Part shown: in pieces, positions 2,596 through 40,321 of the stretch
Numbering within the stretch: position 1 is the first letter of the stretch
How the letters are laid out: every line of letters starts with the position of its first letter
DNA from: Acorus gramineus
Lineage: Eukaryota; Streptophyta; Magnoliopsida; Acorales; Acoraceae
DNA length: 64,000 nucleotides
Direction of reading: 5' to 3'
Assembly (NCBI GenBank): GCA_030737835.1
Contig: JAUJYN010000013.1
Coordinates: 988,806-1,052,805, forward strand
Notes under the pieces: model-generated
What the model was told of the DNA's origin: nothing
What the model saw: the letters and a program-made list of their open reading frames with translations, nothing else
Databases searched by the model: none
Program-made: the position numbers and the translations under genes

Positions 2596-2598
<3 letters not shown>

Positions 2599-2610
2599 CA
2601 ACAAATCACA

Positions 2611-2780
2611 ATGGATTCCAAGTCGGTCTACAACAACTACCAACAGCCGCCTATGGCCGCTGCTCCGCCACCCCCGGCGCCGTACGGCTATCCGGTACCC
2701 ATGCACATCCAATCCCAACCACCCGCCGAGTGGTCCACCGGCCTCTGTGGCTGCTTTGAGGATGTCTCCAATTGTTTGTC

Positions 2781-2811
<31 letters not shown>

Positions 2812-4890
2812 GGGTTCTCTGTTTTGAATTTTGATTTCCATGTGTTGGTAACCCAATCTGTAATTCTGAATTCTAATTTTTTTTTTTTTTGGTTTTATTT
2901 CAGGTTGCGTGACTTGTTGGTGTCCCTGCATCACGTTTGGCCAGATCGCGGAGATCGCCGACCGGGGTGCCAGTTGTAAGTCAAGTCTCCTTTGATTTGT
3001 TGTTTCTTAGTTTACGTTTTACAAGCTTTCATTACAAGGCTTTTTTTTTCCATAAGCACACCTGTTGATTTTAAGATTGAAAGATAAATTGACTGAGAAA
3101 AAACAGAGAAATAAAACAGAGAGTGGGAGGTCCGGTTTATGAGCAATTTATATCAATTTCTCGAGTTGCTCAACTTTGCAATATTTTTTGTATTTTAATC
3201 ATGATCAGTGCATGTTCGCATTAACTGTGCCACTGAATTCCAAAGAAAACATAAAATAGTATAATTATTGCTCTGACTCCGGACTTTTCTCTGGCAACAT
3301 GATGGGGGAATTGAGTTAAAATAAACGGTGAAATAATGATAAAATAAATATTTGAAAGACTAGAATAAATAAAAATTTGTATTTGACTTAACTAAGTATA
3401 AAATAGTATAATTATTCTTCATATTTTTGTAATTAAGTTATTTTAAGTTATTTAACTCGTTTGAATATATGGGTCTTATTGTCAAATTAATTGTCATCAC
3501 CTCTATAAATTTGGGACTATAGGTCAAATTATTTTTTCAACTTTTATAAATCTTTATTCACATCTTATCCATAATTTATCAACGGTCAATCAAACAATAA
3601 AAAATTTATTATTATATTTTCTAACAAGAATAATTAAAAAGCACAACCAAACAAAAAATCACTTATTACTTATCAATATTAGAATAATAAAAAACCTTAT
3701 AATAATTTAATTCTCTATCCAAACGGGCTAAGGGCGCTGCTACATAGTCTCTTTTTTTTGTCTCAAATATATCTCATTTTTAAAAGGTATTCCTAAAATG
3801 GGTTTATTCAACTCGAAATGGAACAATATACATTTTTCGTCAAAACATATATCTTATTAGAGGAAGTTTGTTACTTTTAAAAAATTAAAACATGAGCGGA
3901 CTGTCTGTGAAACTGCTTGGGGGCTGTAATTAACATTATCCCTTCTCTAAATATGTTGCAATATTTGATTAAAGAAATTTTTGTAAAGGTTGCTAATTTT
4001 TTTTTTGTCATGTACAGTATATCCCTGGTTGTAGTCCCTTGGTAGTTCCTATGTAGCAAAATAAAAAAGAAGTATGCATCCATATAAAAAAATTATATAT
4101 TTTATCTAACAAAATATATACCTCATTGAAGATATGTAACTGCATGCGGGACATTAAATAAGAGTTAGATGCAATGAAAGGATCAAGTCACAAATCACTC
4201 CATGGATTTGGTGTTTAATTAGAATACGAAACAGGTGTTCGTTTAAATTAAGGAATTGCATAAAATCGCACATCACACATTTTTTTCCCTATGCAAAGCA
4301 TCTTGGTCATTTAATTTATTGAAGCTTTCCATCACTAGAACCACCCAACATGCTATTGATTATATATCTTAACCAAATTGTTTGTGTGTGTTTTTCAACC
4401 TAATTGAAGCTTGTGGAGTGAGTGGGGCACTGTACACACTTATATCACTCTTGACCGGGTGCGGCTGCCTCTACTCGTGCTTCTACCGGTCGAAGATGAG
4501 GGGACAGTATTACCTATCCGAGAGCCCCTGCTGCGACTGCCTTGTCCACTTCTGCTGCGAAGCCTGCGCCCTCTGCCAGGAGTACCGAGAGCTCAAGCAC
4601 CGTGGCTTCGACATGCACATCGGTAACTAATCCAACCCGTCTTCTCTAAATTACCATGATATGGGACGTGATTGTTCACTTTATAAAGAATTGGGGTAAA
4701 TCCTGTGCGGGGACAAGTTCTGTTTTGTATATGGAGGAAAAAATTGGGGTATATTAGACTCTTTGTTTTATTGATGCTTTGGATGCTAATGTTTTCTTAT
4801 TATTTTATGGGAGGTTGGCACCCCAACATGGAAAGGCAGGCGCAGGGAGGGATCACACCGCCAGCTATGCAAGGAGGGATGACACGTTGA
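2611..4890 (+). CDS. PLAC8 family protein, plant cadmium resistance (PCR)/CNR type, 4 exons
   Basis: Exons are 2611-2773, 2904-2975, 4410-4622 and 4814-4890. All introns are GT-AG and the joined frame codes for 174 residues, a normal length for the family. Residues 1-40 are Pro/Ala/Tyr-rich. The core begins at [11 protein letters not shown] (41-51), followed by the cysteine block CCVTCWCPC (55-63) and ITFGQIAEI, the hallmark of PLAC8 (PF04749). Exon 3 holds a hydrophobic, cysteine-rich membrane segment and the conserved [16 protein letters not shown] motif. The short tail ends GGMTR. Family members sit in the plasma membrane and have been linked to cadmium/zinc/calcium transport or organ-size control; which role applies here cannot be read from sequence. 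Intron 2 (1.43 kb) is AT-rich and shares segments with 25757-25965 and 40856-40937. A diverged paralogue lies at 43183-53503. No breaks were found. Confidence 0.9.
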
Positions 4891-5099
4891 AGAAGAAGGT
4901 GTGGGCCGGTGGGGTCTCTCTCTCTTTGTCTCTCTCACTTGTTTGATGAGTTAGGTGATTCTCAGAAAGATGCATGTAAGGATTCTGGTTTAGAGTGGTA
5001 AGGATTCCGGTTTAGAGTGGGATGGCTTTAGCTTAATATGTTGTTATGTTTTTATTTGAGAATGTAATTTTGGGGTATATATAACTTGAAAACATAAAG
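4891..5099 (+). other. Putative 3' UTR of PLAC8 gene 1
   Basis: This follows the stop codon and contains a CT-rich stretch (about 4915-4940), a short duplicated phrase (ggattccggtttagagtgg type, 4980-5020) and AT-rich candidate polyadenylation signals near 5060-5095. It ends where a MITE begins. Confidence 0.4.
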
Positions 5100-5572
5100 C
5101 CCCCGTTTGGGTAACGGGTTAAGCTCGGATATGGGTGGTATAAGGGTGGTAAAAGAATGGATAGGAAAAATGGCTGTTTGTTTGCAGAGTATAACTTTGT
5201 ATTACTAAGCCAGTTTAAACGAGTATAAGAGAGTATAACAATTCTAAGTAACCCCTAAGATAAGCTATACTCAGTTTATCTATTCCCATGGGTCCACATG
5301 TCAAATCAATTTTTTACACTTTATCACATCAAATTACATATCAACACCTCTTATATATCAAAGAGCTCACATGCATGTCAAATCAACTTTTTTACGCTTT
5401 ATTTATATTTTATTCTTTATCAACCAAACAACTCAACATTTATTCTTATGTTTTCCAATGAGAATAATAAAAAACACAACCAAACAGAAAATCTCTTATT
5501 CCTGTAAAATTGTTATTTATACTGGTATAGTTATCTATCCAGAATAACTCAATTCCTCAATCCAAACGGAGG
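5100..5572. mobile_element. MITE with CCCCCGTTTGG-type TIRs
   Basis: The left end (CCCCGTTTGGGTAACGGG) and right end (reverse complement CCTCCGTTTGGATTGAGG) are imperfect inverted repeats, and AAAG flanks both sides. The interior is AT-rich and non-coding. The ends resemble Tourist/Harbinger-like or hAT-like plant MITEs. Related ends recur in this window (about 3730, 7465, 26710, 52775, 55082). It sits just past the 3' end of PLAC8 gene 1. Confidence 0.55.
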
Positions 5573-7464
5573 AAAGGGTGTATGAAAGATTCATTGGGAG
5601 CTTTGTGCTAGAAATTTTCAAATGTAGGTATTCTTAGAATGATGTGATATCTTTAAAATGAACGAAAGTTCAATAAAAGACTTTTTTCAAAATATCTGCG
5701 TTGGAATGATGATGACATTTTTGTTAATTAGTGACTGTGATAAATCGGGATTATGTACAAGCTAAGGAATGGTTTGTTAGCAAGACAGTATGCAAAATAG
5801 CGCTAAAGTGATATAGAAGTGTGTTGATTTGCTGGAATTAGAACTTTTGAAGAAGACGATCAAGGTTAGAATTTGACTTTATGTCCTTAAGACAACTTCG
5901 CCCTGCTCTGCTGCTCACGGTCTGCGATGACTCTTTCAATATACAATGATCACTCTCTATGGTAGCAGCACTTCACACCACAAAGAAAATGAACGCACTG
6001 TGTTTTTCAAACTCTCTCTTAATGGAATGCTATGGAGACTCGAATGCAAACTCTAAGAGGCTGTATGCCTATGCAGTGAAAGATTGAATGATAAAAAATG
6101 CAGAGAATAGGTGATATTTATAGAGGAGAAAGTTAATTGAAGAGGCCCTTCGATGAGTCTTTTCCTCTGTTCAGTTTTCATTGAAATAGAGTCTAAGGCA
6201 CCCTCTCTTCTTCAAACATCCATCCAACGATCTGATCGTAATCATTGATAAAATGACTCATATTGAATCAGAGGTTGCCTCCAATGGACGGCCCAGATTG
6301 CACTTGCGCGGACCCGCGTCCGAAACCCCTCCCCAGCTCCACTTACACACCCAACCCCAAACACCTAGCATGCATAACCTCTTACATATCCATACATGCT
6401 AGAAAATCTAAAAAGAAGAGAAAAAAGCTTACCAAGAAAGGGGGGAGGAAAATGGGGAGATGCGATGGCTCATAAGCGCACCAACGACCACCTCGACCAC
6501 CACCACCACCACCTCCTCCTTTTCCTTTGCTTCTCTTCTTCTTGGCTGAACACACAAAGAGGGGATGCAAGAGGGAAGCATGAAAGAGCTAGAGGAGGTG
6601 AAGAGAAAGAAACAACAACAATACACACACACTAACCCCTTCTTTTGCACTTCCTCTGCTTGATCTTCTCCTTCTTCTCCACCGAATGCACACAAATGAG
6701 AGGGAGAGAGAGAGAGAGAAATAAAGCAAGGATGGAGAGAGGGGTAGTGAGAGTGACAAAAGTCACTTTGGGGGGGGGGGGATGTGTGAACACAAACGAA
6801 AAAGGGGGGGGGGGGGGTGAGGTTAAGCCTAAAGTCACCCACATCCAACCACTTTTTTCACATTATTGGGAAGTGTGAAATGAAGCGCCATAGCACTAGA
6901 AAATATCTCACCAACCAAATCCAGTAACGGTGAAACCCGGATACGATTCAGAACTACATATTTTTTAATAGTTATCAAAATTCGATAAAAATTTAGCTAA
7001 AACTCAAAATTTTAGCAACTCTGATAAAAAAAAAGGTACAGAATGACACAAACATAACACGTCCTCATAGAGTGACTACCAAAAGCAATTTACTATAATG
7101 CAAGAAGCCTATCTAATAAATCATTAATATTTTTTTTTCAACAACTGATATGGGACTATTACTTTTTCTTCTCCAATCACCGACCACTTTCACTATGTTA
7201 TTGGGAGAACTTTGAATCCAATTTTCTCATCACCTAATAATAGTTTTGAGAATGTAAATATACTACGTTCATTTGTTCGGCGAGAGGAATGCAATCCAAT
7301 GAGTTTCCATTAAAAATAATTAGTGGAACCTAAACTCATTTTAACCAAGAAATGGTCAAAACCCAAGTTTTTCCAACATGGTTTACATGGAAATAGATAT
7401 GTCTAAGTTTTGGAGGCATATTCACAAAATCACAGTTCTTAGACGAAAAATATATATTTTATTG
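5573..7464. other. Intergenic DNA without recognisable gene
   Basis: I see no convincing coding frame. About 5870-6260 is of near-average composition and could be an old LTR or UTR remnant. About 6380-6870 is low-complexity, with purine/pyrimidine-biased runs, CAC repeats and two long G-runs near 6771 and 6805. The open frames there are composition artefacts. Confidence 0.5.
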
Positions 7465-7874
7465 AGCCTTGTTTGGGTAATGGAATAAGGGGAAATAGGG
7501 GGAATAGGGGGAATAGGTTTAAAAATCTCTTTGTTTGCAAGGGATAAATGAATATAACAAAGTCAAATAGACAAGAATAAACTGATATTTATTTTGCATA
7601 TCTCTTTGAAATTGTGTTAAATTTTTCAAAATCTATTTCATTTTTTAAGGGAAGTCCACATCATTTTTTACATTTTATAAATTATTATTCCACATCTTAT
7701 CACTTTTTATCCGCTAAATATTCATGGTCAACCAAACAACAAAAAATCAACTATCATGTTTTCTAACAAGAGTATCTAAAAGCACAACCAAATAAAATAT
7801 GATTGATTTATTTCTTATACATATTAAAATAATCATCTTTTTAATTAATTTATGTCGTTACCCAAATGGAGGCT
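7465..7874. mobile_element. MITE related to the 5100 element
   Basis: The left end AGCCTTGTTTGGGTAATGG and right end (reverse complement AGCCTCCATTTGGGTAACG) form imperfect TIRs about 20 bp long around an AT-rich interior of about 370 bp. The interior shares phrases such as aaccaaacaacaaaaa with the MITE at 5100. No clear target duplication was found. Confidence 0.55.
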
Positions 7875-8469
7875 AAAAGTTTGGTTTGGTACCGTAATGT
7901 ATATTCACAAATTATATGAACCAGGTATGGTAAAATTATGGAGAGAGTTAAACCATTTTTTTTATCTAACTTTTAGTCATTGGAATGGGTACCTGGATCT
8001 TAAATATGCTAAACATACAATTTACCGAATTGTTTTTAAAAATTATATATAATTTTTATTTGAATTGAGATTGAATTATATGCAAATGATAGACATATAT
8101 GTAGGTGTCAACCTAGTTAGGATGTACATGTCATGTAGTGATGTGGTTTATCCTCTATTTAATTCATTTTGTCATTTATTTTTTAAAATCCAATAGATGT
8201 AAATATTTTTTTCAATAAATATAACACATTCAATAAATTTCAATATTATACTTTCATTTTTTAATGTTAGTTTACATTCATATACAAATGCACAAAAAAA
8301 AAAAAAAAAAAAAAACTTCTTTAAAATCTTGGCCCGCAGGCCTGCCCACAGGCTTAAAGCCCAAGTCCAACCCGGAAGGCCTATTCAGGCTTGGGCCATT
8401 TGCAGGGCTTGGTTATTTGACATTGGGCCAACCCGGCCTGTTGGCTAGACAGGCCCGTTGTCGATGCTG
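7875..8469. other. Gene-free stretch
   Basis: AT-rich to about 8300, with an A-run at 8288-8312. About 8325-8465 is a GGCC/CCAAGCC-rich segment of short self-complementary phrases, of a type often found in decayed plant transposons. No gene was seen. Confidence 0.4.
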
Positions 8470-9647
8470 AGGGGCCATTTTGTTCAGCGAAATGCTGATT
8501 TTAAGTGATGATTCATAAGTGCAGATTGTATAAGTTCTGATAAGTTTTGATTAGTTTCGAAAAAAAACTGTTTGGTTCAGCGGAAATTATAAGCACTTAT
8601 GCAGATAAGTGTGTTTGGTTTACCACTGAACAGTAAAGCTTATTAGAAGGGTATTTTGATCAATTTAATAAGTGCTGAATGTTATTTGATGTTTGATCCA
8701 TTTAATAACAATACATCACAATTCATGTCCAATTATAGTCCGAGAACAGTCATGTAACAATACATCAAAATTTATAAGTAATCATACATGTGTGCAATTT
8801 CTGTTGATTACTTATAAATTGGTAACATCCAAGGGCAACATCCTAATCTTTTGTCCAATTACAGTCACAAAAAACATCTGAGTTATTATTTGTTGGATAT
8901 TATACTACTTTCCAGAGATTATATCAAACATGAGGGATTTGCAAGCCTACATGACACATTGTTACATAGAATCCAACAACAATCCACCATTTTAATCCTT
9001 ATAGAGTAACTCCTCTGTTCCAGAAATGATGCGTCAGTGAGTGGACCTGAAATCGAGATGCCGTGGAGATCCAAAGAGGAGAGGTTGTCGAGCCAGAGAC
9101 AAGATCGGAGGAAGTCAAAGGGGGGTCTACCGGCAAGAGATGATGTCGGAGGAGGTTGAAGGGAGGTCGACAAGCAAGTGAGGAGGTCGGAGGAGAATAA
9201 ATTGGATGGTCGACGAGTGGGAGAGGCTTCGGTCGAAGGCGGTCGACGAGCAGCAATGGAGGTCGATCCCTAGCAATGGAGGTCGAAGGGGGTCGACGAG
9301 CAACAATGGAGGTCGACGAGCTAAGGAGCACAAGAGAGTTGTCTGAGATTTGCAGTGGCTAGGGTTTTTGGTGTGTTTGAGGAGAGAGAGAGGAGTAATT
9401 TTAGTTTATACTTGTGTAATATGTGGGTTTTCAGAAGGGCATACTTGTCTTTTTACATAAAAGTTCACTTAAGGCGGTTTGAATAAGTAAGGCAATGTGG
9501 ATTGAATTTTAAGGTTGAAATGGACGTTTAAGAGCTTATATTCAGTTTTTTTTTTGCTCCCAACCAAACACACCTAATGCTTAAAAGCACTTATTTTTAA
9601 CTTTCAGCTAAATAAGGTCTAAAGACTGAATGAACCAAGCAACCCCT
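8470..9647. mobile_element. TIR element (AGGGGCC.../...CCCCT), non-autonomous
   Basis: The left end AGGGGCCATTTTGTTCAG and the right end read in reverse (AGGGGTTGCTTGGTTCA) are imperfect inverted repeats. Both continue into AAGTGCTTA-like subterminal phrases. The interior has a GC-richer block at 9050-9335 made of irregular repeats of GGAGGTCGACGAGC-type units. Its minus-strand open frames are repeat artefacts. No transposase was seen. The ends look hAT-like, but I could not find an 8-bp target duplication. Confidence 0.5.
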
Positions 9648-9880
9648 TACTGTCCTATGTGGTTTCCTTTCCTAAGTCAAAGTAATTGATCAATCATCAA
9701 TTAAAGCTCTGAAAAAAAAAAAACTATTTTTTTAGGAACTAGAAGTTTGAATGGATGAAAGTACGACCATTATATCCTACTATTTTTATTTTTTTTAATT
9801 GAAATAGGAGCTTTGATACAATCTCAAATGGATTCATACGGATCCACTACCCAATGAATTTTGTTTTAAAAGTGATCTGT
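9648..9880. other. Short intergenic stretch
   Basis: AT-rich with homopolymer A and T runs; nothing recognised. Confidence 0.4.
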
Positions 9881-10431
9881 TTTTTAACATCAATTCTCCA
9901 AGGTAAAAAAAATGTCACCAGAAAATCATAGTTAATAAAAACCCTTTTTCATGAGGCTTACATTTTTTCCCCAATCAATTATTTCTCATATATACAAGGG
10001 ATAAAAAAGACAATCATTTGCTAATTTACAGGCATAAACAATCAAGAGATCATAAAAAAAAACTAATTTTTCTATTACATTTCTTCAATTTTGAGGGGGC
10101 TTAAATCCACCATTAGAAAATAGGAGATTTGGTAGGGATTTAGTCCTTTTTATTTGTTTAGTATTGAGGGGTCTCCCCTCCCACCGGAACACATAGGTTT
10201 GCCTTTGTTTGTAACTACGCTTGGTGGTCGAAGAAAATTCAAAAGCAACATTTTGGATTAGACTGACTGAGTTTTTTCAGATAATTTATTTTAGAAAAAA
10301 ATATTTAATACCTCAAATTTGATTCATTTTGATTACCAAAACTAATTTAAAACAATGAGAAAATGACATTCAACCCCTCTTAAAAATGAATCTTACAGTA
10401 ATATGTATCAGATTTGATATGTATACATTGT
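9881..10431. repeat. Direct repeat copy A
   Basis: This ~550-bp segment (from ttaacatcaattctccaagg to gtgtatacattg) recurs in the same orientation at 11263-11828, with scattered substitutions and small indels. The copies do not begin TG or end CA, so they are not obvious LTRs. They contain no gene. Confidence 0.7.
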
Positions 10432-10439
10432 TATGTCTA

Positions 10440-10457
10440 GGGGGGGGGGGGGGGGGG
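10440..10457 (+). repeat. Poly-G run
   Basis: Eighteen consecutive G residues immediately after direct repeat copy A. Length may be unreliable in assembly. Confidence 0.8.
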
Positions 10458-10599
10458 TGTTGTTATAAATCTACCCCATACAATGAGAAAACCACCCCAT
10501 TACTAATAAAATTTATGTACTCTGAAACCAAAGGAAAACCACCCTTACTAATTTCATCCCATTTTGAACCAAACCAACCCCTTCTACTGTACACCCCAT

Positions 10600-10965
10600 G
10601 TTCGACAGAACATCTGTCGACATGATCTTCATCCATCGACATTTGAGATGTCAATCTGTAGACACTTATTTTCAGTCACATATTCGACAACACAACTGTG
10701 GACCGGATCATCATCCCTTGACAACTGGAGTGTTGATCCATACAGAACATGACACGTATACTTATTTTCTGTCACATGTTTGACAATACCATTGTCGACA
10801 AGATCTTGATTTGTCAACATCTGGGGGTGTCGATACTTACAAGACATGACACACTTGTTTTCTATAAGATGTTCGACAGTACAAGTGTCGACATCATCTT
10901 CATACATCAACATTTGGGGTGTCGATCCTTACAGAACATCACACACTTATTTTCTATAATTAATT
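10600..10965. repeat. Degenerate ~90-bp tandem repeat, four units
   Basis: Units begin near 10600, 10682, 10778 and 10871 with GTTCGACA-like starts. Each contains a (T)GTCGACA(T)GATCTTCAT-like centre and a CTTATTTTCTATAA-like end. Spacing is 82-96 bp. The GTCGAC palindrome recurs in most units. No protein product is evident, as stops interrupt all frames. Confidence 0.65.
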
Positions 10966-11262
10966 TAATAACAGTATTATTCCTTAGGCTGCTCCACTGT
11001 TAAATATAACACTTAAATCAACAAATTACATTGAATAACAAGTTGTAAAGAGTAGATAATCATCAAATTATATTACTGCACCACCGAACCAATCACCTAA
11101 TACAATTACACATTCCAAAATTTTGTGCATTAGCACATATATTGATGTTCTATATACACACATTGAAAATTTAACATAAAATAGCCAAATACATTGAGGA
11201 TTATATTGTTAATTAGCCAAATACACATTCTAAAATTTTGTGCATCAACACATATTGATCTT

Positions 11263-11828
11263 TCATTTTTTTAACATCAATTCTCCAAGGTAAAAAAAAT
11301 GTCACCAGCAAATCATAGTTAATAAAAACCCTTTTTCATGAGGCTGTTTTTTCCCCAATCAATTATTTCTCATAAATATATATACAAGCGATAAAAAGGA
11401 CAATCATTTGCTAATTAATTATAGGCATAAATAATAAATAGATCATAAAAGAAACTAATTTTTCTATTGCATTTCTTCAATTTTGAGGGGGCTTAAATCC
11501 ACTATCAGAAAATAGGAGATTTGATAGGGATTTCATCTTTTTTTTTTTTTTAAGTTTTGAGGGAACCCCCCTCCCACCGGAACACATAGGTTTGCCCTTG
11601 TTTGCAACTATATGCTTGGTGGTCGAAGAAAATTCAAGAGCAACATTTTGGATTAGAGTGACTGAGTTTTGATTCACATAATTTATTTTAGAAAAAAATA
11701 TTTAATACCTCAAAATTTGATTCATTTTTCTTACCCAAACTAATTTAAAACAATGAGAAAATGACATTCAACCCTCTTAAAAATGAATCTTACAATAATA
11801 TGTATCAAATTTGATGTGTATACATTGT
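11263..11828. repeat. Direct repeat copy B
   Basis: Second copy of the segment at 9881-10431. A smaller duplication of about 60 bp (cattccaaaattttgtgcat type) occurs at about 11105 and 11228 just before it. Confidence 0.7.
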
Positions 11829-12176
11829 GGGTGCTATTAAAATAAAAAATTCTTCTGTTGTCAGTCATGTAGATGCCTAATACATATAAACTCTACAAGG
11901 ATGTAATTGTATGCATTCAATGTATTAATTACGTATTAATATTAATTTTTCATACATTTAGAGAAAAATCAAACAGTGTGTAATATACAAAGTTGACTAT
12001 AGGATCGGCTAAGTATAACATTTTCCGTAGATTATTTGGAGGGCATAATATCTGTGGTCCAATAATTGAACTGGATTAGTCAAGTTGGAATGATGGGTCT
12101 AACCAATCACTGATGGAAGTCCAGGTAGGTGTCAAAATATGAAAAGAAAAAACACCTAAATTGGTAAAAATCAATG

Positions 12177-13190
12177 CATCCGGTCTCTAAAGTGGTAATG
12201 CAGGTTATTTTAACATCAACCTTTGGTTCTTTTGGGCTGAGAGAAATGAGAGGACATTCAGAGGAATTTTCTCAGAAAATGACAGTGCTTGGAAAAATCA
12301 AACGTGGCTGGGTTCCCTCCTTGGCTTGAAAGGCAATGCAAGCATCCGGTCATTAAATTGGTACAGGTTATTTTATCATCAACCTTTTGTTTCTGAGAGA
12401 AATGATAGGATATTCAGAGGAATTAAATCTCTAAAATGACAGTGCTCAGAAAAATCGAACATGCAATAATTGAGAGGCTCTCTCAAGGCTGAAAATTCTC
12501 CAGTGATCACAAAGATATGGTAAACTTAAATATACAAATTGGAGAGCAACAACACAGCTCAATCACAGTGAAGTGGTCAGCTCCTCCCCCCCTGCATTGG
12601 CATAAATTGAACACTGATGGATCACCCAAAGAGCACAGGTGGACTCAGACGCTTGTTACAGGACAACAGTATGAGGGTTACATTGTTGGATTTGCTGGTA
12701 GGTCGGCACTTGAACTGCAGGGAATAGTGCACGGTGTTCGGTTGGTGGTTGACAAGGGTATCAAAAATCTGTGGATTGAAGCGGACTCTACGACTGCTCT
12801 GGTCTGGATGAATGGCAAATGGATGATACCATGGACAGCTCTCCGGCTACTAAGGAAGCTTTAAAATCTTGTTAATAATCTTGATACATCCACACATGTC
12901 CACAGGTCCACAATTGGAGAGGAAATTATGGATCCTTCCCTGCTTCGGCAAGACATCCGAGAAGTTTTGACCAGTAACTCTCACAGGGAATTCATTGTTG
13001 AACATAACAGTTTTTTGGTTATTCAGGTCTACCAGTGCTTTCGACTCTTGTTGGGAAGGTTAATCTGTTGGTGGGGATGCCAATTGACCCCGTAGAGAGA
13101 GATCTTTCTTGCTATAATCCTTGTAGTACCCATATTTTGTACTCTTATATTCAATTTTTACTACAAATTACATTACCAATAAATAAAAAA
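12177..13190 (+). pseudogene. LINE 3' remnant with RNase H-like (RVT_3) domain
   Basis: The plus strand encodes pieces typical of the end of plant RNase H-containing LINEs: WAERNERTFRGI-like text around 12230, then 12517-12864, where LHWHKLNTDGS precedes ELQGIVHGVRLVVDKGI and LWIEADSTTALVWM. These are the DG and E/D regions of an RNase H-like fold (PF13456). Frames are broken, and the middle of the domain (the usual GG(G)-GVIRD region) is altered. A ~160-bp segment is duplicated in tandem (12177-12310 and 12342-12470). The 3' end runs into an AT-rich, A-rich tail near 13180-13190. The rest of the element (endonuclease, RT) is absent. Confidence 0.65.

Positions 13191-28819: not shown

Positions 28820-28846
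<27 letters not shown>
28820..28846 (+). repeat. Poly-G run of 27
   Basis: Twenty-seven consecutive Gs: a possible G-quadruplex or an assembly-sensitive homopolymer. Confidence 0.8.
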
Positions 28847-29723: not shown

Positions 29724-29732
29724 CTCCAGAAT
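29724..29732. other. Left 9-bp target duplication of the MULE
   Basis: CTCCAGAAT here and at 40313-40321 match perfectly and directly border the terminal inverted repeats. Nine bases is the Mutator-superfamily signature. Confidence 0.95.
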
Positions 29733-30588
29733 GGGATCGGAACCTCTGTTTCGAAATAACAGAGGACCTCTGTTTCGACCAACCGGTAGGCGACGTGTGG
29801 CAAGTTTATCACGTGCTCTCACGTGATGGATTCTTAACAGAGATCCTGGGAAATACTCCGTCTCCTTCCGTTTGTTTCGACCACGCGTCTCTCCTCCCTC
29901 AGAACAAACCAAAAGCCCTAACCACCGCCCCTCTTTCGAAACCCATAACCACCGCCTTCCGACGCCGTCGCCCTCGCCACCACCGCCTTCCGACCGCCCC
30001 TCTTTCCAAACAGAGGTTCCGGCAAGCAATCACAGACCACCCCTCTTTCGAAACCCATAACCACCGCCTTCCGACGCCGTCGCCCTCGCCACCACCGCCT
30101 TCCGACCGCCCCTCTTTCCAAACAGAGGTTCCGGCAAGCAATCACAGACCGCCCCTCTTTCGAAACCCATAACCACCGCCTTCCGACGCCGTCGCCCTCG
30201 CCACCACCGCCTTCCGACCGCCCCTCTTTCCAAACAGAGGTTCCGGCAAGCAATCACAGACCGCCCCTCTTTCGAAACCCATAACCACCGCCTTCCGACG
30301 CCGTCGCCCTCGCCACCACCGCCTTCCGACCGCCCCTCGTCGAAGCCCCAGTTCATCTTCCTCGGTGGGTTTTGGAGGTCTTCGATCTTCTTTATCAGCT
30401 CTTCCGTGGGTTATATTGGGAGGTACATCTCTGCTTGGAGCCCCACTTGTATTTTTTTTTTTTTTTTTTTTTTTCTGTTGTGGGTTTTCAATTCTTAGTA
30501 ATAAATTGAGATTGAATGCCTACCCTTCACTTGAAAAAAGAAAAAGAAAAAAATTGTGATGCTGATGATGACATGAATTGAATGGGTC
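29733..30588 (+). repeat. Left MULE terminal inverted repeat (856 bp)
   Basis: Matches the right TIR (39577-40312) in reverse orientation from the outer tip to ACATGAATTGAATGGGTC. It differs mainly in the number of 112-bp internal repeat units and in homopolymer lengths (T-run at 30452-30474). It contains a CACGTG-like segment (about 29809-29823) and a candidate leader exon ending in a GT donor at 30421. Confidence 0.92.
29931..30345 (+). repeat. 112-bp tandem repeat in left TIR
   Basis: CTCTTTCGAAACCCATAACC starts at 29931, 30043, 30155 and 30267, exactly 112 bp apart; the fourth unit is partial. The right TIR has one unit fewer. The long open frames in both directions across this array are repeat artefacts. 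Confidence 0.93.
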
Positions 30589-30854
30589 TTATTCTCTTCT
30601 CTTGTGGTCCTTTATATAATTTCTTTTCTTTTGCTTCTTGGGTTTATTGTAATGCTGTTTGTAGTAGCTTTCTTTTTCTGTTTGCCTTTAGTTATCATTT
30701 TCCATTGAAATCTTTAGTGGGTATGTAATTTTTGATAGTTTGGTTCATACGGTTTTTTATGTATGCTCATTTGGATTCATTATTTGAGTTGGTTTGAATC
30801 ATGTACTAATTTTTGGAATGATATGAGATGAATGATATGTTTTATTGTAGGTTC

Positions 30855-31271
30855 ATGGCAAAATTTAAGTATTACGCAGTTGCAATAGGCAGGACCCCAG
30901 GCGTGTATACGAATTGGCCTGAATGCAAAGCACAAATACATGAGTTTCGAGAGCCAATATTCAGGGGCTTTCAAAATCTTGAGGAGGCCAATGAATTTGT
31001 TACCAAGCATGCCGTCCACTCCACTACTGACCATTCCACTCCATTGCTGACCTCTTCAAAGAGAGGAAGTTCAAGCCCAGCACCTACATGCATGATTTCT
31101 CAAACTGATCCACTGCAAAGAGAGGTAGTACAAGCTCAACATCCACATGAATGCCCACCTACATCAGTTGTTTTGCCTATCACTCATATCATACTTGCCA
31201 TGTTCGGTTGTACTATTTTCTTGTTGGTCCTGATTCTCACAATTCTCATCCTCATTTTTTATCACATGTAA
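30855..31271 (+). CDS. MULE accessory gene: RNase H1-type hybrid-binding domain with C-terminal membrane anchor
   Basis: ATG 30855 follows an AG acceptor (30848-30849). A TIR leader exon could splice in from a GT donor at 30421. The 138-residue product has an N-terminal hybrid-binding domain (residues 4-49; the RNase H1 N-terminal/Cauli_VI fold, PF01693). It carries YYAV, GRTPGVY, W-x2-C (NWPECKAQ), F-x2-F and LEEANEFV at the conserved spacing. In RNase H1 this fold binds RNA:DNA hybrids or dsRNA. A Ser/Thr/Pro-rich linker follows (52-105). A ~28-residue hydrophobic segment at the very end (IILAMFGC...LILIF, then YHM) suggests a tail-anchored membrane protein. There is no RNase H catalytic domain. 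The gene takes the position that mudrB has in MuDR. The frame is fully open, unlike the transposase. Role unknown; binding of nucleic-acid intermediates is inference. Confidence 0.75.
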   Translation: MAKFKYYAVAIGRTPGVYTNWPECKAQIHEFREPIFRGFQNLEEANEFVTKHAVHSTTDHSTPLLTSSKRGSSSPAPTCMISQTDPLQREVVQAQHPHECPPTSVVLPITHIILAMFGCTIFLLVLILTILILIFYHM

Positions 31272-33252
31272 TTTTGGTTGGTTTTGATGCCTTGGAGTTG
31301 TAATTTTGATTTGGGACAATAGGTTATGGTTGTGGACATCTGTGTTTGAAGGAATGTGTATGGTTATGAAAGTTTGTATTTGAATTAGTATTTGAATGAA
31401 TGTTTCATTAGTATTCACACGGTCAATGCACAAAGTATTTGAATGAATGAATGATTTGGTTGGTGAATGATGATGGAAAATCTTGATATTGCATAAAAAA
31501 AACATGAGGCTTGTGATTTAATGTCTGTTCCCATGTAAGTCTTTCCTTCATACTGTTTTATTGATGGAAAATCTCTATACTGTTTTATAAGGATTAGATG
31601 TTGGGGAAACACAGTTTTCAGGGTGGTTGGATTAGGTGACGTTTTATTGATGGAATTGTGGCTTATACTTTATACAGCAGATGCATTGACTCAGGTTATT
31701 GATGTATGTTTCTTTGGGAATAGCCATGGAAAAGATATGGATTTTATGGTAGAAGATGTTATTTTTTATTTCAGGGCAACTTGGATTAGGAGTAATTTTT
31801 TTTTTGAGTCATTTTAATGTAGGCAAGCTCAGAATGCTAACTGCTATGTCCAAGTGATTCAAAACTAATTTCCATCAGAATTATAACACAAAATAGAATT
31901 TCAGAATCAATTAATCCTTGCCTTGAAGGATTTGGATACCCCCGATAGCAAACAAAAAAGAAAAAAGAGACTTGGCATTAGATCAGTCATTATTGCATTA
32001 TCCACTGGGAAAAATAATCTATTGAGCACTCAGCAGAATTGCTTCTGAAAATCTTCACTGACACAAAGCACTTTGTGCCATCTCTGGATTTTTTGTAAAG
32101 ACATTACTCGATTAGATAGATAAATAACAACTGCAAAGACATTGGCATTAAAGCTTGTAGGAAACACATTTGATACCTTCATCTTCCAACCCACAGCAAA
32201 TTGAGCAACAGTTTAGGAACAATCAATCAACCCACTATAGATCAATATCCATTGCCATATTTTCTACAAGTCCATAAACCTATTTATCTTCTGTCACTAC
32301 ACAAATTCAGCTAATTATCTCTCCTCCCCCCCCCCCCAAACCAGCCACCCTGTCTGCTAATCACCACAACCATTCGTAATGGAACCATCTGTCTTGCAAC
32401 ATGCCCAGACCACATTATTATATTCTCTGTCAAGTTATCCCCAATTTGAGGGTTGTCTGCTACTTCAGATGCAATGTTTTGAGTCATCCTATTTATCCAT
32501 GCCAACATCGATTAATCCATATCCATCTAATTCAGTCATTTACCATACATTCCATATTGCATCTTGATTACACAACAATCTACCAATCCCACATTGCTAG
32601 ATTTATCACTGAAATTGCAGAGCATATCCTCTTCAACCACTAAGCCTAGATACCACTGAAAACTCACCATTATGCTTTTTTCGTCACATTGGATAAGAAA
32701 TTTCCTTTTCAATAATTGTGAAGGATCATACAGATCCCATATAATTACACTGATGATAATTCATCTGAATGTTCATGTAACAGGCTCCAAGTTAATGTGG
32801 CATCTGGCAAGCATTCCCTCATTAGCAGAAGTACAAAAGTTTAGCAAATACATGAGAAATATTTAGGAGCAGTCGTATGATTTTCACTGTAGGAAAATTT
32901 GAAATCAATTACTGTGTTATTAACGTAGAATAGTAAAAATATTTAGAAAAGTAAAAATATTCATTACAATAGGAAAAAAAAAACATGAAAATCATCCAGC
33001 ATACAACAGGGGTACACTCCATTATAGTGCATCAATGCTGTACAAAGCATAATTGCACTCAATAACCAAAACAAAATTTTCCAAATCAAACTTGACATCA
33101 GCTTTCCACCAGTAACTACAGCAGTTGGCCAACAATGTGACATCTGCGAAACCACGAAATCAAGCCTCCCGAAAACAATGTGACAGCACTACGAGATGGA
33201 ATGAAACTACCGCAACTATAATGGCATGGAATGTAGAGAAACCCCTGCAGGT
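31272..33252. other. Non-coding interior of the MULE
   Basis: AT-rich sequence following the accessory gene, probably including its 3' UTR. No recognisable domains; short open frames only. A C-run lies at 32325-32336. Confidence 0.45.
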
Positions 33253-33520
33253 GACAATGTTATATATGTGTCACTTTTAACCTGCTGGTAACCGTTGGAG
33301 CGTTCTGGCAGTTTTTCGTTTTTTTTCGGTTTTCGATCGGTACCGCTAATTTTTGGACTGTTAGCTATCGTCCTGTGCTAGAGGACTCCGATTGGAAATC
33401 TAACTGTATATTTGGTGTCCTGGTGCCATTTTAGGCCTCTCACGAAAATTTCGTAGAATTCCGGTAACGTTTCTGAAATTTCGCAGTTTCAGGGCGTGTC
33501 TGGGTTTTTAAGTCGCTCGC

Positions 33521-33528
33521 TATATATA
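33521..33528 (+). promoter_or_regulatory. Candidate TATA box of the solo LTR
   Basis: TATATATA inside the LTR, followed at about 30-60 bp by a CT-rich stretch typical of a plant leader. Probable U3/R promoter; transcription would run toward the MULE transposase 3' end. Confidence 0.4.
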
Positions 33529-34969
33529 GGTGGGATCTAATTTCGAAATCACTATTCATCATCCCTACCAATTTCATTTTCTCTCTCCCCTCTCTCTTTT
33601 TCTCACTTTTGAGCCCCCTAGAGCCCTCAAAGCTTAAAACCCAAAGCATAGGAAGTGTAGATCGGGTCCCGATCTACACTCCGGTGCTTTCAAATCTGAA
33701 TTCCGGCGAGTTTTGCCCCTCCGTCCGCCCTCTCTTCTCCTCTGTTTTGGCTTATTTCGGAGGTGGGAGTAGATCCGGGCGTTGGAAGCCCTTTGGGAGA
33801 GGTTTCGGTGCGCGGAGAGCAACCGGACTTCCCTTCCTCCCCTTGGTAAGCCTCTTTTCCCCTCTTTTCTTGTGTAGATGTATGTTAGGAGGGTGGATTT
33901 GAGGTTGGGAGGCGGTCGGCGGCGGTGGGTGGCCGTCGGAGGGCTGTGGGGGGTGGTCGAAGGCCTTGGGGTGGCCGGTGGGTGGTGGTTGAGGTGCTCG
34001 GGCAGGGTGGCTGGTGGTAGCAGCACAGGCAGCAGCACAGGCAGCAGGCGCAGCAGCTGGCAGGGGCGGGCGCGCGGGTGGAGCTGGGCGCTGGCAGGCG
34101 CAGTCGGGCGCGCAGTCACGCGCAGGAGCGTGCGCGCGGGTGCGCGGGTTCGCGCGGAGCGGGCGCGCGGGTGCTGGCGCGAGCGGGGGTGTGCGCGGGA
34201 GTGCTCGCGGGCGCGCGCGGGCTGGGCACCTGGGCACTGTTCCTGGGTGCTGGGCAGGGGGCCTGGGCATGCACCTGGGCGCGGTGCTGGGGACCAGTGC
34301 GCGCGGTGCTGGGGACCAGTGCGCGCGCGTGCTGGGGCGTGCGTGCAGTGCGCGCAGGGGCGCGCTGGGCTGGACGCGCGGTGCGCGCGGGTGCGCGCGA
34401 GCGTGCGCATGCGTACGGCAGTGCGTCGGGGCGCGCGGGCTGAGGCGCGGCGGCGCATCCGAGGGCGGGTGGCCGTGCGGGTGGTAGCCGGAGTGCTCGG
34501 GCTAGCGTGCGTGCGGGTCGTATGCACGTTTGCCCGAGTGTTGGGTATTTATTTGGGTAGTTTGGTATATTTTGGAGTATTTTGAAGTGTTTATGTATTG
34601 TTCTCACCATATTGAATGCCTGTCTTGCAGATCTAGACGGACGGTCGCGCGACGACCCAGATACTTGTGAGTGGGACAATCCAACCCAGTAGAGAGGCGT
34701 CATACGCACTTGGGCGTATACCGACTTCTCCTGGGGCACCGCGGATTATATTAACCTGTAATAATATGTATTGCATGTGAGCATGATTTTAAATACCGAA
34801 TGCATGCTACCCTAGGATTTTATGTTAGGGACTTGCACCCATTGGATAGGTGTGAGAGCCATGCACCATGCCCCCTGTTTTCATGATAGGAAACCTCGGC
34901 CTATGCATGCGTCCTACTAGTTTATTTATTAAATTAAATGCTAGTGTATGTTAATTCGCATGCCTTAGA

Positions 34970-35290
34970 TAATATTATAGGGAGGAGCCTTGCGAGGTCA
35001 ACATTGAGACCCGTGTTAGGGTACTCCGTGTTCCTTGTTTGGTTGTCGGGATGTCCTGTATCGGGACCTCATGCTGCCCTCCCCCAAGGTTTCTAGTCCC
35101 AATAATATTATATGTAATGTTGTATGACTGTTATGAATATTAGCATATTTAGTGAATATTATAGGGGAGGGGCCTTGCGAGGACAGCGGTGAGACCCGGG
35201 CTAGGGTACTCCGTATTTCTTGTTTGGTTGTCGGGGTATCCTATATCGGGAACTCACGCCGCCCTCCCAAGTTTCTTTCCCCCAATGATA
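34970..35290 (+). repeat. Tandem duplication inside the 3.06-kb LTR
   Basis: A ~180-bp unit (attataggg(g)agg(a/g)gccttgcgagg ... tcgggatgtcctgtatcggga ... cccaat(a/g)atatt) occurs twice, near 34972 and 35155. The LTR at 61716 lacks it, which explains part of the length difference. Confidence 0.8.
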
Positions 35291-36318
35291 TTCCGCCCTT
35301 GCTAATTATTGTGCATGTTCCCCGCATCTTGGTTATGCGCCCTGGAGGAACTCTGAAGAGTTCGTGACATTAGAGTTGTAGAGATGTGTTGTCGGCGGAT
35401 CCGAGTGGATCATATGCGTATGGATGGGCTGTTCTGTCCCCCTCGTTGGATCCGGTAGAGACTGCCCCAGCGTTAGAAAGGTCGTCCCTTCCAAGGGTTC
35501 CCATCAGTAGGCGCCTCCTGATTTGGTTTCGGACTGGGCCGAAGTTGTGGGTGAAAACCAAGCGGCCTACGGAGTGGAGGAGAGACTATCGGTGGACCAA
35601 GGGTGACCAACAGCCTAGTCAGTCCCAAAATCCTATGTCACCTTTGGAAAGGTGAGGGTGAGGGTGTAGTGGGTTGTCGATGAGCGACCCGCTGGTTTTG
35701 TTATGGATGATTGTCAGTCCCAATATCCTGAGTCTCCTGTTGAGGGGTAAGGGTGAGGGTATGATCTGGGTTATGGAAATAGTGGTTTAAGATGGATTAT
35801 TGATTATGTTGTTCCTGCCCTTTGGAGGCGGGATGAATAGCTGGATTAATATGTTGTGGTCAATATTGTCTGTGATGCATGGGTTCACCCCTCGCATATG
35901 TTTTTCCCCAGTTGCCACTGAGCCTGAGCTGGAGCCGGAGCAGCAGTTGGAGCTTTCCGAGGGATTCCTTCAGTAGCGGAGCAGCGCCACGTTCCGCGAG
36001 TGCCAGAGGCTATCAGCATCCCGTCTTGGCTGTATGTATTGTATTTCCGTGCTGAGCACGTGTTGTATATATTCAGTTGTATTGGTGTATATTGGCTCTC
36101 ACAGGACATATGATTGAGTATCGAGTCTGTAGTATGTTTATTTACAGATTCAGTCTTTTGCTTCCGCATTTGGTGTATATATCATGTCAGCCCCTTTGTT
36201 GCCTGTGTGTCATTCTAGTTGTTGTGTATGATATATTATTGACCTCCCGTGTAGATTCTGATATTATATATACACTTGCCGCGTCCCGGGGACGGCCGCC
36301 CTGGGGCGTGACAGACAA

Positions 36319-36718
36319 TGTGGTCAAATTCCGATAAGAAAGTAAATAATATACCATGCACCAACCAGAAGCATGCACACATTTGTGTAAGCAAAATGTA
36401 TCACCTGTTATTCCACTCAACTTTCTGTGTGTTGCTTAGCTTAGCATACCCCTTGATATACAGTGAGCTAAACAATCCTGTCACCTCATAGATCTTCACC
36501 GAAATAACAAAAAAATGAATATGTCTTTTTAACGTTTTAGACTGAAAAGTTGAAGCTAAAGAGGAATCTATGAAATTGAACTTAATTGTACATGCGTGCA
36601 TAAGTAGCAAAGACTTCAAAACTTCTTTACTCTGAAGTAGGAAGAAGCAAATGAAGTTATGCAAACAAAAACAAAAATTCTTCACCCTACAATCAGAATT
36701 CCACAATACATAATATAA
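36319..36718. other. Non-coding interior of the MULE
   Basis: AT-rich; a 28-bp direct duplication (atcagaattccacaatacat type) lies at about 36690-36745. It may include the 3' UTR of the transposase. Confidence 0.4.
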
Positions 36719-37148
36719 TCAGAATTCCACAATACATAATATAATCGCAAAATGCAGAACACACACACTATAATGTTTGAGGACAACTCCACTCCACTGA
36801 ATATGGAAATTGATGCAACTCCAAGAGACAAAAGCAGTCCAGACAACCTTGAATTGTGTAAGACTCCAAACTCCATCTAGTACCTGTAATATAAATTTAT
36901 CTATGTTAATTTTTGTGATGAACTCATTAAATGAAATCAAGTATACTAGTGTATTTTAAAAATTAACATTACACATGACAATAAAAAATCTGTGCTCCTC
37001 CTCCATTCTTCAGAAAAATTTGATGCTTCACTCATTTGAGTAGGATAAAAAAGGGATTCCTGTGCCTGCGATAGAATTGATTTAACATCATTGAAGTATA
37101 TATGAAATATAAATTCCACTCCACGACAAAAAAAAAAATGAAATGTAC

Positions 37149-39349
37149 CTGAAGCAATTGAGTCATTGAAGTCATTCCTTGACTGCTATCGTAGTTCCCA
37201 ACTATGGGGGCTCTCATTCCTTGCGCAAATGTTTGAGGGCTCTCAATCGCAATGTGGGACGCATGTTGGGACACACGTTGAGTTTGAGAGCTTTGACCTC
37301 GTGATCCCTTCTCCAACGCGCCGATCCATCTTTTTTGAGGCTTCCCTCCCACAGTCTTCTTTCCTCTTCTTTTAAAGCCTTTAGCAATCTCATTGTTCAG
37401 ATTGCTTTCCACCTCATGTTGCTCATTGTCATCTTGCAAATTTTGAGATGATGTCCGCAAATCTATCTCAACCTCCTCCATTATCTCTTTTGTGCGACGT
37501 TTAAGTAGCTCTGTTGAATGATCTGTTTCAGATGCCTTGGATGCCACTTGAATGAGACCATGACTTAATTGTTGAAATCGTCTTCCCAAATCAGAAATAG
37601 CATCAACTTGTACTGAAGAAGAACACATATCATGCACAACACCGGATTTTGCATATCTTGTCCACCTCTTCAAGATATACTGTTGTGGAAGCTCCTTAAT
37701 ATTTCTGTGATCAAGAACTTTTAGAACATGACAGCACTGGATACCCATAAATTCAAATTTTTTACAGCTACAAGTGACCATCTCATTAGATGAATTATAA
37801 AAAATGGTTCTTTCACTGCCACAATCTCTACGAACTTTGTACTCTATCATATGTCCCACCTCCCGATGAATGTAGATAGAACAATTCAAAAATTTTCCAT
37901 ACTCTGCTTGAAATAACTCAAATATCTCGGGCGTGTAAACCTTTGTGACACATGTCATCATCAAAGCATTAAATGGAATTACCGGTACTGTATTCATCAT
38001 CTTGAAATCAGCACTCAATTCACTTTCACGCCGATCATCCATAACCCTATCAAAATGCTGAAAGAAACGCAATGGATCATGCTTTGAGTTCAGGTAGCGT
38101 CTCAGAAGAGCATTGAAGCTTTCACTACGTTGTGTACTCTTCATATCCGCGCAGAATGTGTCTCTCCCATACACTAGAGCCCATTTCTCCTTCTCAACAA
38201 AAGTTTGTTGAAGCCATTTATTATCTCGAAGATTGTATTTCTCAAGCATGTTATCCCAAGCATATAGAAAATCATCCTCCGTCTCGTACCCATAAATACA
38301 AGCATAGAAGGAACTTCTGAAGCCTTCGATAGAATAAAGATGTCCAAGATGTTTTGTTGCATTTTGGGTCAAGTGCCACAGACATAGCCGATGATGAGTC
38401 TCTGGTAGGACAACTAAAATAGCTTTGGCCATCGCCGCTGATTGATCTGTTAGAATAGTCTTCGGACGTCTCCCTGACATTGCTTGAAGAAAAGTTTCAA
38501 ATAACCAAATAAATGAGTCGGCTGTCTCATCATAAAGCAATGCACCCCAAAAATAATTGTTTGTCTATGATTATTCACTCCAACGAATGGTGCAAATGGC
38601 CTCCCATGATTATTTGTGCGATAGGTCGTGTCGAAACAAATTACATCACCATAATGTGCATAATCGACAATAGACCTAGAATCGGCCCAAAACACATTAG
38701 TTATTTGTTCATCGGCATCAAGTTGCATTGAGTAAAAGAATGATGGATCTTGTTGTTGGTTGTTGAAATACTGAAAAAGAGCACCCGCAATACCATTTTC
38801 CATTCTACTTTCTCTTTTAGTGCGCAAGTAAGACTTCACATCATTTAAGACAAAACCAAGATTCCTTCTGCCTCCAACTTGTCCACTCATCAAATCCATA
38901 ACGGTTTTTGGTGCCAATCCTGACCCATCTATAATATCAACCTGAGCAGCTTGAGCCTTTTCAATTTTTCTGTGAGACCTCAAATTGTGACGCAAAGGGG
39001 TTGTTACAAGATCATGATTGTGGTTTTGTTCAAATTTAGTGACACAATAAGCACCAGAAGACTGATAAATGATAACTATATGTGCCTCACATCCTGTTCT
39101 TGTATCTGGCTGCGGGTGCAAGACTTTTCGCTTATCAACCCCTTTCATCCCTTCTTTAGAACAACAAAATTTTCGCTTTGTCACTATACCATTAGACTTC
39201 GATACGCCACTTCTTCGGATGCTAAATCCAACTGATCTTGCATATGCGTTGTAAAATTGATATGCACTCTCTTCGGAATCGAATGCCATACCAACTTCAG
39301 GCACACCATTATCATTACGTTCATCAATACACTCATTGTCACCTTCCAT
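37149..39349 (-). pseudogene. FAR1/FHY3-type MULE transposase with one frameshift
   Basis: Start ATG is taken at 39349 (MEGDNE), after an AG acceptor at 39368-39369. A FAR1 DNA-binding domain spans about residues 25-115 (FYNAYARSVGFSIRR, Cys63, Cys87, then QNHNHD zinc ligands). The MULE transposase domain (DDE type) starts with FWAD (220-223) and catalytic CFDTTYR (Asp240). After a one-base slip in a C-run at 38544-38547 it continues with LLYDETADSFIWLFE, ILTDQSAAMAKAI (second Asp) and HRLCLWHLTQNA. A SWIM zinc finger follows (CSCKKFEFMGIQCCHVLKV). The main frame ends at MTQLLQ next to a GT donor (37148). A short last exon from 36883 to 36719 is possible. It would bind the TIRs and cut and paste the element; FHY3/FAR1 regulators descend from such proteins. 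Its place inside TIRs shows this is a transposase, not a host gene. Confidence 0.9.
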
Positions 39350-39576
39350 ATTGATATCAACAATCACCTTTTAAGAAAAAGACATAATTAAAAACATAAT
39401 TATATATTGGCATGAAATTAAATAACTCATAAAAAAAATATCAGATTAGATCTAAAAGCCACAAAAATATAAAAATCAAATTACAAAAAATCTATATCAT
39501 CTACAACAAATTAAAATAACTCCACAAAAAATAATCTCTAAATACACACACACAAATATATCATACCAACTTCAGG

Positions 39577-40312
39577 ACCCATTCAATTCATGTCATCATC
39601 AGCATCACAATTTTTTTCTTTTTCTTTTTTCAAGTGAAGGGTAGGCATTCAATCTCAATTTATTACTAAGAATTGAAAACCCACAACAGAAAAAAAAAAT
39701 ATACAAGTGGGGCTCCAAGCAGAGATGTACCTCCCAATATAACCCACGGAAGAGCTGATAAAGAAGATCGAAGACCTCCAAAACCCACAGAGGAAGATGA
39801 ACTGGGGCTTCGACGAGGGGCGGTCGGAAGGCGGTGGTGGCGAGGGCGACGGCGTCGGAAGGCGGTGGTTATGGGTTTCGAAAGAGGGGCGGTCTGTGAT
39901 TGCTTGCCGGAACCTCTGTTTGGAAAGAGGGGCGGTCGGAAGGCGGTGGTGGGGAGGGCGACGGCGTCGGAAGGCGGTGGTTATGGGTTTCGAAAGAGGG
40001 GCGGTCTGTGATTGCTTGCCGGAACCTCTGTTTGGAAAGAGGGGCGGTCGGAAGGCGGTGGTGGCGAGGGGCGACGGCGTCGGAAGGCGGTGGTTATGGG
40101 TTTCGAAAGAGGGGCGGTGGTTAGGGCTTTTGGTTTGTTCTGAGGGAGGAGAGAGATGCGTGGTCGAAACAGACGGAAGGAGACGGAGTATTTCCCAGGA
40201 TCTCTGTTAAGAATCCATCACGTGAGAGACACGTGATAAACTTGCCACACGTCGCCTACCGGTTGGTCGAAACAGAGGTCCTCTGTTTGGTCGAAACAGA
40301 GGTTCCGATCCC
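39577..40312 (-). repeat. Right MULE terminal inverted repeat (736 bp)
   Basis: Inverted partner of 29733-30588. It has three 112-bp units (39820-40120) instead of four, and one small insertion (GAGGGGCGACGG near 40068). The candidate leader exon ends at a GT donor (39730-39729), the same site as in the left TIR, and would feed the transposase gene. Confidence 0.92.
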
Positions 40313-40321
40313 CTCCAGAAT
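40313..40321. other. Right 9-bp target duplication of the MULE
   Basis: CTCCAGAAT, identical to 29724-29732. Confidence 0.95.

Follow-up and report, generated by a model that had tools for sequence, protein, structure and literature searches.

The RHBD gene and its Mutator-like element

Within a 64-kb window of Acorus gramineus contig JAUJYN010000013.1 (the whole stretch analysed, to which all coordinates without a locus label refer), a small gene at 30855-31271 lies inside a Mutator-like element (MULE) and encodes a protein that joins an RNase H1-type hybrid-binding domain (RHBD) to a predicted C-terminal membrane anchor; relatives of this gene are carried by DNA transposons of a second superfamily, PIF/Harbinger. 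The gene is an open frame of 138 codons plus stop, as an initial annotation of this DNA had described it. The surrounding element is a complete insertion of 10.6 kb (29733-40312), with GGGATCGGAACCTCTG as its termini at 29733 and at 40312 and a perfect 9-bp target-site duplication, CTCCAGAAT, on either side; the duplication and long terminal inverted repeats (TIRs) reported for its ends are both present. The features are as follows (coordinates; strand; description; basis):

29724..29732; no strand; left target-site duplication copy CTCCAGAAT; sequence
29733..30588; plus; long TIR of the left end, enclosing tandem units and the predicted leader exon; inverted-repeat arms and ends
30423..30850; plus; predicted leader intron of the RHBD gene, with a GTACAT donor in the TIR and a TTGTAG acceptor 4 nt before the ATG; sequence
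30855..31271; plus; RHBD accessory gene, 138 codons; open frame, Pfam, model and hydropathy
37032..38540; minus; C-terminal transposase frame (MULE, SWIM); open frame and Pfam
38450..39367; minus; N-terminal transposase frame (FAR1, MULE), in a different frame from the C-terminal part; open frame and Pfam
39368..39730; minus; leader intron predicted for the transposase gene, with the left donor sequence mirrored in the right TIR; sequence
39576..40312; minus; right long TIR; inverted-repeat arms and ends
40313..40321; no strand; right target-site duplication copy CTCCAGAAT; sequence

The product is laid out as an RHBD (residues 5-52), a linker containing P-L-L (residues 63-65) and a predicted tail anchor (residues 107-137). 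A profile search with PF01693, preset as the test of a significant domain match, scored 69.1 bits (E = 3.6e-19, residues 5-48; curated cut-off 21), and no other Pfam family was found in the 138-residue product at E 0.001; hence it has no RNase H catalytic domain, again as first proposed. The predicted fold (beta-beta-alpha-beta-alpha) superposes on 3bsu at 0.6 Å over 48 residues, and a VIA-align comparison gave two entries, each an RNase H1 domain, with no entry for either linker or tail. In domain and predicted fold the product thus corresponds to the N-terminal hybrid-binding domain of RNase H1 (PF01693; 3bsu, 1qhk, 6vrd); unlike RNase H1 itself, it is transposon-encoded, lacks the catalytic domain and ends in a hydrophobic tail. 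This tail has a mean hydropathy of 3.05 over 21 residues (112-132), followed by LIFYHM, and was modelled as a single helix spanning residues 107-137 (mean pLDDT by block of 60 for residues 101-110, then 91, 97 and 96). A C-terminal 21-residue hydropathy peak of 2.9 to 3.7 recurred in 13 of 15 copies, L020 and L028 being broken upstream of the tail, and also in 6 of 6 further intact copies, in which the best window elsewhere reached at most 0.57. With this single hydrophobic segment at its extreme C-terminus, the product is predicted to be a tail-anchored membrane protein, consistent with the terminal membrane segment originally noted.

The transposase gene, on the minus strand, carries FAR1, MULE and SWIM domains (Pfam) spread over two overlapping frames, and the window copy therefore looks frameshifted; related copies have a single long frame (795 codons in L009, 780 in L015 and 809 in L018, stop to stop). 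The RHBD gene, which runs rightwards from the left end, and the transposase gene, which runs leftwards from the right end, face each other. A donor-like GGGAG/GTACAT lies in both TIRs (at 30423 and, mirrored, at 39730), and a scan of 13 other MULE-type copies that allowed up to 2 mismatches found this donor in 4 (L009, L010, L011 and L014), at one end or at both, a count held down partly because stretches were cut. From the shared TIR donor and the TTGTAG acceptor, both genes are predicted to be transcribed convergently from the TIRs, each with a TIR-borne leader exon. The TIRs, read off the inverted-repeat arms, are roughly 740 to 860 bp long with tandem units inside; these units, of about 112 bp, lie at 29900-30340 and 39800-40110, the left TIR having the larger number. 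By transposase domain content the element is a FAR1-bearing (Jittery-like) MULE. The published Jittery dicot/monocot sub-group, which is likewise FAR1-bearing, has TIRs of 39-292 bp or none and a target-site duplication of 8 bp or not indicated, and is listed with one open reading frame (ORF) (PMC6446971); with its long TIRs and 9-bp duplication, the window element departs from that description in both sizes. The remainder of the window contained no match to any of the MULE or Harbinger transposases at E 1e-4, the sole background measured for transposase linkage.

Copies and relatives across the Acorus genome

Searching the 398.6-Mb assembly (150 of 152 first-look candidates were scored) returned at least 136 PF01693 matches, of which 115 were free of stops across the match and 78, with the host-like locus described below counted in, were stop-free and had a frame of 130 codons or more; 18 copies share the frame of 149 codons, stop to stop, seen in the window element. 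Surroundings were examined for 31 of the 136 (the window copy, 20 taken from the top and across frame lengths, and 10 chosen for odd matches). The transposase of this MULE adjoins the RHBD gene at 13 of these loci (the window, L009-L015, L018-L021 and L033), and PIF/Harbinger DDE sequence is found at 12 (L017, L023-L028, L035-L037, L039 and L041), reduced to fragments of 24 and 37 residues at L035 and L041, with a Myb piece as well at L035. Three more are deleted relatives: L016 retains only the Harbinger Myb gene, the middle part of its relative L017 being missing, and L034 and L040 have a MULE-type end pair around the RHBD gene with non-matching flanks and no transposase. Neither type of transposase was present in the examined stretches of L022 and L038, and L032 is a host RNase H1-like locus in which an intron splits the RHBD (a weak RVT_3 match there, E = 0.022, was below the cut-off). 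The RHBD gene is therefore not merely a resident of host loci, as 25 of the 31 examined copies adjoin a DNA transposase or its remnant.

Among the 30 transposon-type copies, an intact frame from RHBD to tail was present in 19, all of which showed the C-terminal hydropathy peak. Eight MULE-type copies had both ends, and five of these (the window, L009, L014, L019 and L021) were bordered by five different perfect 9-bp duplications, which argues that the RHBD gene moves with the MULE; the flanks of the other three (L015, L034 and L040) did not match.

The Harbinger copies fall into four groups, labelled A to D here, with M for the MULE copies (labels are our own). Pfam identified DDE_Tnp_4 (PF13359) in L017, L023 and L027 and Myb_DNA-bind_3 (PF12776) in L016 and L027, and the other Harbinger loci were assigned by tblastn against these DDE and Myb genes. 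Groups A and C thus have DDE and Myb genes by Pfam; in group B, Pfam identified a DDE gene and sequence similarity a Myb-like gene, and group D has a DDE gene by similarity; a DDE_Tnp_4 and a Myb_DNA-bind_3 gene are typical of PIF/Harbinger elements, to which the copies described here add the RHBD gene as a third. Two Harbinger copies could be bounded once the stretches L031 and L029 were added (L017 at 4019-10823 and L026 at 3280-12737), each flanked on both sides by TAA, a 3-bp duplication; for one of the three extended copies, L023, the far end was not found. In L017 and L026, the RHBD and DDE genes point towards each other, an arrangement that matches the two-gene layout of the MULE. Group C (L027) differs in that its RHBD exon lies downstream of the DDE gene on the same strand, and an A. 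gramineus gene model (P0011) fuses DDE-derived sequence to an RHBD; the two pieces of its DDE part match L027 and L039 at 89 to 91% and 76 to 79% identity. Together, the layout of RHBD, linker and tail recurs in the MULE and in all four Harbinger groups. The initial proposal of a MULE accessory gene is accordingly supported in part, holding up as regards an accessory gene and being too narrow as regards MULEs.

Protein searches returned an A. calamus protein with 88% identity over 68% of the query and a matching A. gramineus gene model. The only protein found with both RHBD and tail was P0004 (A. calamus), in searches of limited sensitivity that do not imply absence from other plants. The remaining Acorus gene models (P0002, P0005-P0007 and P0011) have no tail, and the rest of the proteins returned (P0008-P0010 and P0012) are different RHBD proteins, of which two are RNase H1-like. 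A further A. calamus gene model, P0003, bears the same tail-anchor sequence on an N-terminus without an RHBD. The genome paper for Acorus tatarinowii gives Mutator as 5.01% of the assembly.

Descent and selective constraint

In a full-length protein tree, the MULE and Harbinger A genes were separated from groups B, C and D (SH-aLRT 99.6, bootstrap 99). The transposases tell a different story, with the group A DDE protein 71% identical to that of B and 33 to 39% to that of C, whereas the group A RHBD protein shares 44% identity with its MULE counterpart and 33% with that of B. Because the MULE gene groups with Harbinger A although the transposases are unrelated, the RHBD gene has likely passed between superfamilies, and the simplest history suggested by the sequences would be vertical descent within Harbinger followed by one passage from an A-like Harbinger element into a MULE; passage from MULE to Harbinger would be less economical. 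A tree of the RHBD only, with outgroups, joined M and A with moderate support (90.4/81) and placed group C and the host domain with weak support (about 40 to 57), and a separate origin of the group C RHBD is conceivable. Nucleotide homology between the MULE and Harbinger A genes ends near the splice acceptor and the stop codon, which does not settle the direction of transfer because, at a synonymous divergence of about 1.2, homologous flanks could have faded.

Ratios of nonsynonymous to synonymous substitution (dN/dS) were below 1 between groups, in contrast to the neutral dN/dS that had been named as telling against the first interpretation. Between the window copy and L016, dN/dS was 0.18 for the RHBD, 0.19 for the tail and 0.70 for the linker, and between L022 and L016 it was 0.21, 0.14 and 1.15, respectively; the RHBD and tail are thus constrained between the MULE and group A, and the linker is not measurably so. 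Within group B (L023-L025), the values were 0.29 for the RHBD, 0.10 for the tail and 0.39 for the linker, which is constrained there too. Transposase constraint was equal or stronger (0.14 to 0.40 for MULE, 0.08 for Harbinger B). In the otherwise fast linker, P-L-L (31041-31049 in the window; P-V-L in L037) is retained in all groups and, from its sequence, looks like a docking motif.

These data bear on whether the RHBD genes could be cargo, that is, captured gene fragments amplified as useless passengers in the manner of Pack-MULEs. Gene capture is frequent in MULEs (PMC6446971), the RHBD frame is broken in 11 of the 30 transposon-type copies, and dN/dS was near neutral (0.96) between L019 and L022, two copies without an intact transposase. 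We nevertheless consider this improbable, given the constraint between groups, the retention of both RHBD and tail in five groups and two superfamilies, and the intron that splits the RHBD at the host RNase H1-like locus. A host gene caught by chance was also dismissed as the principal explanation, in view of the at least 136 matches, the repeated transposase linkage and the constraint.

For L019 and L021 relative to the window copy, synonymous divergence was about 0.38 in the RHBD gene and about 0.13 to 0.24 in the transposase (P = 0.003 for L019, with transposase sites approximated), as if the accessory gene had been exchanged between MULE subfamilies.

Possible action on host silencing

Because the gene is retained alongside transposases of two unrelated kinds, with ends of different sequence and duplications of different length, the work of its protein is more likely directed at the host than at the transposase. 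We tentatively favour an accessory gene, shared between MULE and PIF/Harbinger elements and combining an RHBD with a predicted C-terminal anchor, that acts on host silencing of the element and not on the chemistry of transposition. A cofactor of transposition proper, protecting or bridging transposition intermediates, would recall mudrA and mudrB, whose convergent two-gene layout the window element resembles. Although mudrB is presented as seemingly needed for integration (PMC6446971), we regard such a cofactor as very improbable here, since the RHBD gene accompanies two unrelated transposases with different ends and duplication lengths and a membrane tail is hard to reconcile with a nuclear transpososome.

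As to how silencing might be countered, a protein with a duplex-binding type of fold and a membrane tail, encoded in an element with convergent genes and long TIRs, could be a sink for duplex RNA tethered to a membrane, and our best reading of the sequence and structural model is a protein that would bind the element's own RNA duplexes at a membrane. The RHBD protein would be expressed from a TIR promoter, and its tail would insert into the endoplasmic reticulum (ER) or outer nuclear membrane with the RHBD toward the cytosol. There, the RHBD could bind double-stranded RNA (dsRNA), or RNA:DNA hybrid, with its source in the element's long TIRs and in its convergent transcription. The membrane is also where plant 21/22-nt transposon small interfering RNAs (siRNAs) gather on polysomes. 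RNA so bound would be kept away from the dicer and RNA-dependent RNA polymerase (RDR) machinery, and post-transcriptional silencing and the ensuing DNA methylation would be delayed. The conserved domain of Drosophila RNase H1 is a tight binder of hybrids that shows no dsRNA binding when the catalytic domain is absent, and the yeast domain reportedly binds dsRNA more tightly than hybrid (PMC7657459). Since these two domains differ, either duplex is a possible target.

Residues of the domain point in both directions. In an alignment of 12 rows (A3), all rows share Tyr7, Trp21 and Phe31, and 11 have Phe or Tyr at position 36 (His in L037), which we take to be the duplex-contacting face expected of an RHBD. 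Lysines 59 and 60 of human RNase H1 presumably have a role in duplex contact, and the first of several points against RNA binding in the service of anti-silencing is that the position of Lys59 is Arg, Lys, Met, Ala or Val in the alignment and that of Lys60, unlike in the human enzyme, is Gly in all 12 rows (with Ser in L039, outside these rows), although Lys-Gly at the same positions in the host RNase H1-like locus tempers the latter. Further such points come from selection and sampling: tail dN/dS was 1.30 between the window copy and L019 and 0.87 between the window copy and L022 (few sites), so that constraint on the tail is not seen at short range; L023-L024 gave 0.88 overall on few changes; the broken copies count here too; and the 31 examined loci are a non-random sample whose linkage count lacks a genome-wide background. 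From the literature, the related domain of ANKLE2, an animal ER and nuclear membrane protein that is membrane-anchored like the window product, binds neither hybrid nor dsDNA (PMC13179284), and the fold alone therefore does not prove binding; human ANKLE2 differs in being a host gene product with an N-terminal anchor and LEM and ankyrin domains.

Two alternatives draw on this evidence. In one, which we judge fairly unlikely, the protein is a nuclear-membrane tether that anchors transposon R-loops, or nuclear RNA and DNA of the element, at the inner nuclear membrane and favours expression or transposition with no suppression of silencing. The predicted tail anchor and hybrid-binding-type fold, the example of ANKLE2, in which one membrane protein carries both a LEM domain and a related domain, and the independence of transposase type, which it fits equally well, are in its favour, whereas the failure of the ANKLE2 domain to bind hybrids (PMC13179284) and a net charge no higher than 0 to +6 across residues 1-52, which disfavours strong DNA binding, are not. 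In the other, which seems unlikely, the RHBD binds no nucleic acid and serves as a protein-protein adaptor, recruiting a host protein to the membrane and, for example, aiding expression or traffic of transposon proteins. The glycine in place of the second human lysine and the retained P-L-L, with its look of a docking motif, would fit such an adaptor, whereas the invariant aromatic residues, in the contact roles that we assume for them, and the likewise Lys-Gly host domain argue against it. ANKLE2 again offers a precedent (PMC13179284).

A silencing suppressor with an RHBD-type motif would have a counterpart among viruses. The motif of caulimovirus P6 is said to bind duplex RNA. P6 (viroplasmin/transactivator) shares the PF01693 motif, placing it in another selfish genetic element, and suppresses silencing; suppression has been mapped to residues 80-110, however, which provides no evidence for the RHBD-type motif and further weakens the case for anti-silencing (available portion of PMC5670102). 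P6 is also described with further domains and inclusion bodies, whereas the window product has only an RHBD, linker and tail in 138 residues; a multi-domain P6 was thus rejected as its identity, PF01693 being the only match. An endogenous caulimovirus was rejected too, as no other Pfam domain occurs in the product and the linkage is to DNA transposases. Another PF01693 gene inside a DNA transposon is capE, in one enlarged Helitron copy of the fungus Pleurotus ostreatus, for which the accessible text describes no membrane tail and does not contain the word 'transmembrane' (PMC4289320).

Second genes are known from MULEs, for example mudrB, VANB/VANC and the plant mobile domain ORFs, the last often antisense to the transposase, as is the RHBD gene; VANC, an anti-silencing factor, is the plant case named in the review, whose accessory-gene table has no RHBD or RNase H entry (PMC6446971). 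Few anti-silencing genes carried by transposons have been described, and in the literature searched, as far as its texts were accessible, RHBD genes were not reported from either MULE or Harbinger elements; an RHBD-type transposon accessory gene and its sharing between superfamilies thus appear to be new relative to that literature.

If two DNA-transposon superfamilies that are unrelated retain one and the same protein, functions directed at the host could be told apart from those directed at the transposase. Should its RHBD bind either of the two duplexes, dsRNA or hybrid, at the ER, it becomes testable whether DNA transposons, like viruses, directly fight small-RNA silencing, and nuclease-free RNase H1-type domains in caulimoviruses, the fungal Helitron and the RHBD elements would gain a use. 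A bolder and more doubtful version is that of a transferable anti-silencing module, an ER-anchored sink for duplex RNA that would have moved from PIF/Harbinger into MULE and been kept by both for disarming the siRNA pathway independently of sequence. If true, such a module would be the transposon counterpart of viral silencing suppressors.

Two minor features of the window were also observed. Within the MULE, at 33634-34739, both strands carry long open frames that overlap and have many Ala, Arg, Gly and Pro codons, and a similar-looking stretch occurs in L025 at 2455-3492. Upstream of the MULE, a run of about 27 G lies at 28820-28846.
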